64,000 bases of DNA, from NCBI GenBank assembly GCA_027483345.1, contig JAIXUV010000034.1, positions 1 to 64,000 of the forward strand, read 5' to 3'. The stretch's first letter is position 1, and each line of letters begins with the position of its first letter. The notes under the pieces are model-generated. The model saw nothing but the letters and a program-made list of their open reading frames with translations. It made no database searches and had not been told where the DNA came from. Below, one piece after another: positions 60,345-63,192 of this stretch. The translations under genes and the position numbers were made by a program. The stretch comes from Verrucomicrobiales bacterium (GTDB lineage: Bacteria; Verrucomicrobiota; Verrucomicrobiia; Limisphaerales; UBA9464).

Positions 60345-61235
60345 TCAAACCTCCCCGACCAGCTTCACCAAGCGACGGCCGTATTCGACGTAGTTTGCCC
60401 TCAGGGCTTCGTCTTGCGCGCCGGCGTTGGCCTGGACGTCGTGGAACACCGCGACCATGTGGGGTTCGATGCTCAACGCACCCGTGTATCCCCTCGCCTT
60501 GGCGTCCGCGAGGATCCGACGGACCGCACCGTCGCCCTCGCCCGGCCAGTGGTAGTCGGCATCGCCCCGCGCCGAATTCCAACGGGCGTCCTTGATGTGG
60601 ATGTGCACGCTCCGGTCGCGGACTTGGGTCCAGAACTCCCAGGGATCCTGCCGGGGCATCGGTTCCGGGCGGGTACGGTCCAGGTTGAAGACGGGATTGG
60701 CGGTGTCGAAGACCCAAGCGAGGCCGGGCACCTCGTCGAGTAGGCGTTGGGCGTGCCTCCAGCTCATCCCGCCGTAGTTCATGCAGTTCTCGTGGACCGG
60801 TTGGAGTCCGGCGTCGAGGAAGCGGCGGGTCACCTCCCGCAGGCGGCGGAAACGTTCGGCCTCCATCTGGTCCCCATCGTCCCGCACCTTGTAGCTCATG
60901 ATGCGGACGAACCGGGTTCCAAGCCGCTGCATGCGCGGGATGCAGCGATCCACCTCGGCCAGGGTGATCTCGAACGGGTCCTCGATCCGTTTCGCCCAGT
61001 TGCCGATCGTCGACGCAAAGCAGTAAACCGAGATGCCGGCGTCCTCCAGCATCCCGACCGCGGAGTCGAAGGCCGCGTCCGTCAGGTCGTGGAGATTCGC
61101 CTTGGGATGCCCCGGTACCGTGACGTTTCGGGCCTCGATGTGGCGCCAACCCAGTTCGCGGGTGGCTTCGATCTGGGAGGCCAGCGACTGGCCGGCCTCG
61201 TCGCCGATGCCGCAATAGAGGGAGGGAAAGGACAT
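60345..61235 (-). CDS. Sugar phosphate isomerase/epimerase (TIM barrel, AP-endonuclease-2-like)
   Basis: 296 residues. TIM-barrel fold of the xylose-isomerase-like family: LGWRHIEARNVTVPG, FVRIMSYKVRDDG, QPVHENCMNYGGMSWRHAQR with a metal Glu (H-E-N), LAWVFDTANPVFN (D metal site), VHIHIKDARWN (H-I-K-D) and GALSIEPHMV (Glu). The four metal-ligand positions are present, so it should be active on a sugar; the substrate is not known. Upstream on the same strand is a very small basic gene. Its stop converges on the chemoreceptor gene. Confidence 0.88.
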   Translation of the reverse strand: MSFPSLYCGIGDEAGQSLASQIEATRELGWRHIEARNVTVPGHPKANLHDLTDAAFDSAVGMLEDAGISVYCFASTIGNWAKRIEDPFEITLAEVDRCIPRMQRLGTRFVRIMSYKVRDDGDQMEAERFRRLREVTRRFLDAGLQPVHENCMNYGGMSWRHAQRLLDEVPGLAWVFDTANPVFNLDRTRPEPMPRQDPWEFWTQVRDRSVHIHIKDARWNSARGDADYHWPGEGDGAVRRILADAKARGYTGALSIEPHMVAVFHDVQANAGAQDEALRANYVEYGRRLVKLVGEV

Positions 61236-61327: not shown

Positions 61328-61432
61328 CTACTTGGCCTTGGCGGTCTTCGCGACGCGCGCGGTTTCCTTCTTACGCTTGTTGTAGGCGTAACGGCGGCGG
61401 CGCTTCTGGATTTTGTTGGATTGTTGTCCCAT
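61328..61432 (-). CDS. Very small, highly basic conserved-looking protein (34 residues)
   Basis: 34 residues from ATG at 61432 to TAG at 61328. Starts MGQQSNKIQKRRRRYAYNKR and continues KKETARV, ending in a Lys/Ala-rich tail: about 16 Lys/Arg in 34 with one Glu. It has the look of a ribosome-associated or nucleic-acid-binding peptide, like bL36/bL34-sized proteins, but matches none that I recognise. The codon structure is clean, a hairpin terminator follows, and the same strand holds nothing overlapping. Too short for ordinary gene finding. Function unknown. Confidence 0.72.
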   Translation of the reverse strand: MGQQSNKIQKRRRRYAYNKRKKETARVAKTAKAK

Positions 61433-61453
61433 GGCTAAGATTTACTTTCGCAA

Positions 61454-62176
61454 ATGTTGCAAGTCTTGAGTCGGAAGATGCGTCGTGCCAGCGGCTGCAT
61501 CAACCACTTTCTCCTCGGGTGCGCCGCGGTGGGGCTGCTCGCGACGGGATGCTCTTCGACGCCCGCGGAGAAGCAAAGCAAGGCGGAGAAGAAGGACCTG
61601 GCCCAGGTGCGGGTGTATCGGGAAGCCAAGGACTTCTCCGGCCGCGCCGCGGAAGCCGGCAGCCTCGGCACCAGCAAGGCGACCGTCGGGCGATCCGACC
61701 CGGCCGAATTGACGGTCCTCCGTGAGTCCTTCCTCGACGAACGGGACATCAAGCGCGCCCAACTCGTCGAACAGGGCGACAACGGCTTCATGATCGGCCT
61801 GGAGTTCACCGCACACGGCAGCCTGGTGCTCCAGATGAACTCTCTCGCCGTCCAAGGCCAGCACCTGGTCGTCGCAGCGCGTTGGTCGGACGGCACCAAC
61901 GTCATGGGACGGTTCATCGCCGCGCCGATCATCCGACGCCAACTGGACAAGGGATTCCTGGTCTTCACCCCCGACATGAACCGCGAAGAGGCCACCCGGT
62001 TCGTGCGGGGCCTCAACAACGTGGCCATCAAGTTGGAGAACCAGCCCAAGCCGGTGGATGAGAAGAAGGCGAAGAAGGCGGCGGAAAAGGCGGCGAAGAA
62101 GCAGAAGAAGCAGGAGTCCGAGAGGCCTTCCAGCACCTTCAAGAGGGACTTCGACCCGTTCCTGCCCCAGCCCTAG
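61454..62176 (+). CDS. Putative lipoprotein
   Basis: 240 residues. The N-terminus gives a lipobox LLATGCSST, so Cys33 would be the lipidated residue; a second start at 61478 shortens the leader. After a short Lys-rich part, the body (LTVLRESFLDERDIKRAQLV, MIGLEFTAHGSLVLQMNSLA) is beta/alpha without a known motif. The C-terminal region is Lys/Ala-rich (KKAEKAAKK-type). Its stop overlaps the start of the M23 peptidase gene by one base, so the two are cotranscribed and may act together in the envelope. Confidence 0.72.
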   Translation: MLQVLSRKMRRASGCINHFLLGCAAVGLLATGCSSTPAEKQSKAEKKDLAQVRVYREAKDFSGRAAEAGSLGTSKATVGRSDPAELTVLRESFLDERDIKRAQLVEQGDNGFMIGLEFTAHGSLVLQMNSLAVQGQHLVVAARWSDGTNVMGRFIAAPIIRRQLDKGFLVFTPDMNREEATRFVRGLNNVAIKLENQPKPVDEKKAKKAAEKAAKKQKKQESERPSSTFKRDFDPFLPQP

Positions 62177-63192
62177 TGAACCTCAGACGCATCGCCCTCC
62201 TGGCGCTGCTCCTGGTCCCAGGAGTCGGTCGCCTCTTCGCCCAGCCGTTCCAGCTGCCTACCGCAAACCGTGCGGTCCTCGACCCGGATGGCGGACAGGA
62301 ACGCTATTTCGTCGGCACAGTGGGTAAGCCTTGGACCAGCGGACGGTTCGGATGCGTCCGGACCGATGGGTTCCAGCTCCATGAAGGCGTCGACATCCGG
62401 CCCTTGGACCGGGACCGGCGGGGCGAACCGACCGATCCCGCCCGCTGCGCCGCCGAAGGTGTGGTGGCCTATGTGAACACCAAGCCGTCCCTCTCGAACT
62501 ACGGCAACTACGTGGTGGTGCGCCACAAGATCGACCAACTCGAGGTCTTCACCCTCTATGCCCACCTCGCCTCGGTGAAGGCGGGGATCAAGGCCGGGAC
62601 CCCGACGCAATCCGGGGACGTCCTGGGTGTCATGGGCCGGACTTCCAATACCCGCCAACGCATCACTCCCGACCGGGCCCATCTCCATTTCGAGATCCTC
62701 TTCATGGCCAACTCCCGCTATGCCGAATGGCACCGGGGTGCATTGAAGGGAACCCGGAACGACCACGGCGACTTCAACGGCCGCAACCTGATGGGAATCG
62801 ATCCCGTGGAGGTCTACCGCATCCAGTCCAAGGTCGGTCCCGGCTATGATCTCGTGCGGCACCTGGGCGGGATACCCGAGTTGTGCCGGGTGGTGCTGCG
62901 CCAACCGAATCCCGATTGGGTCCGGCGCAACCGCGGCGCGGTCCGTCCCAACCCCAAGGCCGAACGCGACGGTGTCGCCGGATGGGAACTGGCCCTCGGC
63001 TTCAACGGCGTCCCGCTCCATGCGACCCCGCGCAGCCGACAGGAACTGGGGGGCTCACGTCGCAACGCCCTCCTGACCGTCAATCCCGTGGTGGCCGCCG
63101 CCCATCCCTGCGGCAAGATCGTGGTCCGCCGCGGACAATCCTGGGAACTCACCAACAAGGGATCCCAACTCCTCGAGTTGCTCGCCTACTGA
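62176..63192 (+). CDS. M23-family zinc metallopeptidase (LytM-like)
   Basis: 338 residues from GTG. Signal peptide RIALLALLLVPGVGRLFA. The LytM/M23 core is about 60-200: LHEGVDIRPLDRDRRGEPTD carries the H-x-x-x-D zinc ligands, then VFTLYAHLASVKAGIKAGT and RAHLHFEILFMANSR with the H-x-H motif. Full ligand set, so active peptidoglycan hydrolysis is possible. C-terminal 130 residues are extra (LALGFNGVPLHATPRSRQEL) and unique-looking. Overlaps the lipoprotein stop by one base. Confidence 0.9.
   Translation: MNLRRIALLALLLVPGVGRLFAQPFQLPTANRAVLDPDGGQERYFVGTVGKPWTSGRFGCVRTDGFQLHEGVDIRPLDRDRRGEPTDPARCAAEGVVAYVNTKPSLSNYGNYVVVRHKIDQLEVFTLYAHLASVKAGIKAGTPTQSGDVLGVMGRTSNTRQRITPDRAHLHFEILFMANSRYAEWHRGALKGTRNDHGDFNGRNLMGIDPVEVYRIQSKVGPGYDLVRHLGGIPELCRVVLRQPNPDWVRRNRGAVRPNPKAERDGVAGWELALGFNGVPLHATPRSRQELGGSRRNALLTVNPVVAAAHPCGKIVVRRGQSWELTNKGSQLLELLAY

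Follow-up and report, generated by a model that had tools for sequence, protein, structure and literature searches.

The window considered here is the whole analyzed stretch of 64,000 nucleotides. An initial annotation had placed an open reading frame (ORF) for a 34-residue, highly basic protein at positions 61328-61432, with a clean stop and a downstream hairpin, and gave no strand. We found the frame where it had been reported and assigned it to the minus strand, on which a TAG codon closes it. The encoded peptide, MGQQSNKIQKRRRRYAYNKRKKETARVAKTAKAK, contains 14 Lys and Arg residues and a single Asp or Glu residue, with a calculated pI of 11.75. The gene carries no annotation and is solitary; it is flanked by a lipoprotein-like gene transcribed divergently and by a TIM-barrel gene in the same direction (Table 1). 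About 21 bp separate the start codon of the small gene from that of the lipoprotein-like ORF (window 61432-61454), or about 45 bp if the latter begins at its second ATG; either the promoters therefore overlap or the transcript leaders are very short.

Table 1. Features at and around the small gene, in window coordinates.
Feature	Position	Strand	Remarks
Small basic protein gene	61432..61328	minus	ATG at 61432, TAG ends at 61328; 34 aa
AAAGTAA leader element	61442..61448	minus	9 nt upstream of ATG
Hairpin 3' of stop	61309-61286	minus	10-bp stem, GAGA loop; probable terminator, weak T tail
Xylose-isomerase-like TIM-barrel gene	60345..61235	minus	co-directional, downstream, past the hairpin
Lipoprotein-like gene	61454..62176	+	divergent; conserved neighbour in the window's order; no Pfam match
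M23 peptidase gene	62176..63192	+	second conserved neighbour in the window's order

The predicted hairpin was also recovered. Its arms read AGGGCCACCC-GAGA-GGGTGGCCTT, and the 60 nt past the stop codon fold with an energy of -31.3 kcal/mol (z = -2.87). Because its T tail is weak, the hairpin was not listed by a simple, strict terminator scan. Among 118 distinct homologues, 63 have, in the 100 nt past the stop, a terminator-like hairpin with T-rich sequence behind it, compared with 13.6 expected from mononucleotide shuffles, suggesting that the element is probably a transcription terminator. On the other side of the gene, 18 of the 118 homologues have AAAGTAA no more than 30 nt ahead of the start (0.64 expected); this element may be a promoter (-10) element or a translation signal. 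AGGAG-like sequences precede the ATG in many of the Lentisphaeria-type homologues that we read.

The gene had been described as real and possibly conserved, and both parts of this description held: homologues were present in related genomes and their substitutions followed a coding pattern. One full-length match each, aligned from residue 1, was obtained in 36 of 39 genomes of the order, and the 36 come from most of the 16 sampled families. A control peptide with the same residues in shuffled order matched only one of the 39 (E 0.99). Profile searches detected the gene in 176 of 236 genomes at the class level and in 124 of 195 at the phylum level, Victivallis (Lentisphaeria) included; these searches covered genomes of the class and of the phylum. 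Nearly all genomes carrying the gene have a single copy, and a search of plasmids and phages gave no match. When 84,980 bacterial and archaeal species were scanned, 163 places were confirmed, and the best 80 of these were all titled verrucomicrobial or lentisphaeral, with Chthoniobacter flavus Ellin428 and Victivallis vadensis DSM 14823 among them. Many matched records titled Akkermansia muciniphila are metagenome bins, and their names were not relied on.

A wider profile applied to 49 genomes without a hit recovered clear members in only four (G047, G080, G166, and G048), so that absence of the gene from several families looks real; families apparently without it include f38, f43, f45, f51, and f52. 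In several complete genomes, the gene is likewise absent or diverged beyond detection, implying that translation as such can proceed without it. The small gene is kept across most of Verrucomicrobiota, but it is not universal, being missing from several verrucomicrobial families.

Substitutions were analyzed in 118 distinct 26-codon cores. For pairs sharing at least 85% identity, mean pS was 0.374 and mean pN 0.033, and codon-position entropy was highest at the third position (1.30, versus 0.67 and 0.48 at the other two). These values show that the gene is under strong purifying selection. Apart from frame -1, the alternative frames contain stops in most sequences, the antisense frames -2 and -3 among them. 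Frame -1 is open over the 26 codons in 97 of 118 homologues, and it was rejected as the true gene since the substitution pattern fits the frame of the 34-residue protein. That the ORF arose by chance, or that the conserved element is non-coding, might be argued from its shortness and from the lack of an entry in curated libraries, but start and stop codons are conserved, the substitutions are of the coding type, the shuffled control was negative, and hairpins recur after the stop. The distribution of homologues (36 of 39) and the substitution pattern refute this explanation, whose probability we regard as negligible. The ORF is a real protein-coding gene.

The protein consists of a conserved core (residues 1-22), with the consensus MG[QK]QxNKxxKRxRRxxYxxR, and a variable Lys/Ala-rich tail (residues 23-34). 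The widest alignment shows no variation at M1, Q4, R14, and R20. AlphaFold2 predicted a single helix over residues 7-33 with a mean pLDDT of 88; in this model the conserved K7, K10/R11, R14, Y17, and R20 would roughly share one helix face. Members of the Verrucomicrobiaceae/Akkermansiaceae type reach a total of 75-184 residues through AKKAPAKK repeats, and the C-terminus is often acidic. These tails span 50-150 residues (loci L087, L089, L094, L096, L113, and similar), and their length differs widely between close relatives. A long Ala/Lys/Pro-rich N-terminal extension (MAEETKAKKAPAKAEAAATPPAPAEAAPEKAPAKKK...), resembling the small-protein tails of other families, was also observed on an ORF of the window genome (L224:15865-16470, G000:C370) that appears, from its operon position, to encode uS11.

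The genomic context of the small gene was compared across lineages. The initial annotation had proposed conserved synteny as a check. Within the window's order the lipoprotein-like and M23 neighbours are kept; elsewhere, other genes adjoin the small gene. The next co-directional gene belongs to the NYN_YacP family (PF05991) in 38 of the 105 genomes in which places for both genes were listed, representing nine families, and the gap is usually about 50 bp. At L177, for example, the small gene occupies 998-1123 and NYN_YacP starts at 1139. A member of this family, Rae1/YacP of B. subtilis, cleaves mRNA within the A site of the ribosome (PMC12320835). The window genome has its NYN_YacP on contig C266, apart from the contig of the small gene. 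Since many genomes have the small gene without a detectable NYN_YacP (e.g., G040, G056, and G065) and others have NYN_YacP without the small gene (e.g., G046 and G067), the pair is not obligate. In an Opitutaceae-type genome (L067), the next gene encodes RimO, the ribosomal protein S12 methylthiotransferase, with a score above the NCBIfam cut-off, and the sequence at L070 looks like the same arrangement. Other neighbours include an Fe-S assembly gene (L068), DUF1802 (L157), and, at L200, L205, and L206, sequence resembling pyruvate phosphate dikinase. No ribosomal-protein operon location was seen among the loci read. This variation by lineage indicates that the small gene moves independently from one context to another, with one partner linked to translation that recurs.

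The codon-usage score of the small gene (0.033) was close to the mean of ribosomal protein genes (0.039), whereas each of the 25 window genes scored -0.001 or lower; against a null with the same amino acids, p was 0.074, a weak signal from a gene of only 34 residues. The ribosomal reference set is uncurated; its members were selected for having open frames and for where they lie in the spc/alpha region. Together with size, charge, the predicted helix, single-copy vertical inheritance, and the recurrent link to the Rae1 family, this codon usage makes a role at the ribosome our best inference. On sequence and model grounds, we lean towards the small protein being a ribosome-associated, rRNA-binding peptide. 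It is also quite possible, though we hold this more tentatively, that it is a previously undescribed stoichiometric ribosomal protein characteristic of Verrucomicrobiota, which in the lineages possessing it would accompany bS22 and the TIGR04137 protein. By analogy with bS22, bL37, and bL38, the predicted Lys/Arg-rich helix (residues ~7-33) would place its face of K7, K10, R11, R14, Y17, and R20 in an rRNA pocket, and such binding would stabilise rRNA structure or assembly, or tune elongation. Since its conservation equals that of the helix, the short N-terminal MGQQ stretch probably contributes specific contacts. The C-terminal tail, which some families extend greatly, would be dispensable for the core function.

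The same features could fit other roles. A short basic helix would also suit DNA binding, and in a small H1-like nucleoid protein the helix would anchor DNA while the AKKAPAKK tails, which run to 50-150 residues and often end in acidic residues in Verrucomicrobiaceae/Akkermansiaceae-type members, would neutralise it like the tails of histone H1. The conserved part of the family, however, is the 22-residue motif and not the tail, of which the window member has almost none; an Ala/Lys/Pro-rich extension also occurs on the apparent uS11 of the window genome, and no chromosome-maintenance gene was found among the neighbours read. We therefore consider a nucleoid function unlikely. The frequent adjacency to NYN_YacP (co-directional in 38 of 105 genomes and nine families, usually about 50 bp apart) would be explained if the small protein were a partner or regulator of the nuclease, for example an adaptor that recruits it to ribosomes, or an antidote resembling an antitoxin. 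This is rather improbable: the pair is not obligate and is split between contigs in the window genome, and a mobile toxin-antitoxin pair would hardly show such strong purifying selection or occur phylum-wide as single copies. No copy turned up in the search of plasmids and phages.

A non-stoichiometric function, as a free RNA chaperone or as a peptide of ribosome biogenesis or hibernation, would draw on the same data as a ribosome-bound protein, as sequence cannot tell stoichiometry. Nothing specific speaks against it, but the ribosomal-protein-like codon usage slightly favours steady high expression, and we regard it as quite improbable. Binding to the ribosome remains the explanation that we prefer. 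If the protein does reside there, the inventory of ribosomal proteins in Verrucomicrobiota is incomplete, and the linkage to a Rae1-family nuclease would tie ribosome composition to co-translational mRNA decay. In any case, a conserved protein without a family is added to a widespread phylum whose short genes are easily passed over.

Comparison with known families gave no assignment. There was no credible Pfam match for the window protein or any member, and no NCBIfam match for the window protein at E<=10 or for 21 members at E<=1; a CBFB_NFYA match of one member only (E 0.025) was dismissed as composition. Sequence and profile searches of PDB chains, bL37 and bL38 included, yielded no match at E<=10, and a literature search for the peptide string gave none. 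Among the smallest ribosomal proteins, bTHX belongs to the smallest class of 30S proteins, starts with MG, and is highly basic. The window protein is likewise small, basic, and MG-starting; unlike bTHX, it is predicted to be helical. Identity with bTHX was rejected because no member matched PF17070, and Thx was not found in the window genome.

The PVC signature protein TIGR04137 (Chlam_Ver_rRNA, about 50 aa), which in our own reading would correspond to CT421.2 of PMC3444138, resembles the window protein in being small, basic, single-copy, and typical of Verrucomicrobia and their relatives. It is a separate gene in the same genome: the TIGR04137 model matches C241:3061-3207 there and likewise another gene in 20 of 20 relatives, and the hhalign probability between the two families is 0.2%, so that identity was excluded. 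Like the window protein, bS22 (COX24_C, PF08213; an analogue of mS38/eL41) is about 33 aa long, K/R-rich, helical, MG-starting, and easily missed (PMC10618245). Identity with bS22 was also rejected, as PF08213 gave no match and the genome contains a separate bS22-like gene; hhalign aligned only five columns of the two families with a probability of 1.3%, and BLASTP gave E 0.36. The bS22-like gene (L222:1501-1602, equal to G000:C399:4242-4343, plus strand) is probably unannotated, encodes the 33-residue protein MGSLKKRRKAKINKHKRRKKLRQNRHKKRTWQK, and closely follows an ORF with a hisG-like end. Its match to COX24_C (E 0.0117) falls below the curated Pfam cut-off, and the name is therefore tentative.

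The closest parallels are with ribosomal proteins of this size. Lys and Arg make up 61% of bS22, which docks into a pocket of the 16S rRNA, and a pocket of rRNA also holds the small helical protein bL37. In Borrelia, bS22 and bL38 escaped annotation until cryo-EM (PMC10618245). Both bL37 (mycobacteria) and bL38 (Flavobacterium and Borrelia) are lineage-specific small ribosomal proteins, as proposed here for the window protein. The window family shares the traits of small ribosomal proteins in being small, strongly basic, conserved, and single-copy. It is an undescribed family whose kind is known, namely lineage-specific small basic proteins with a probable place in the ribosome.
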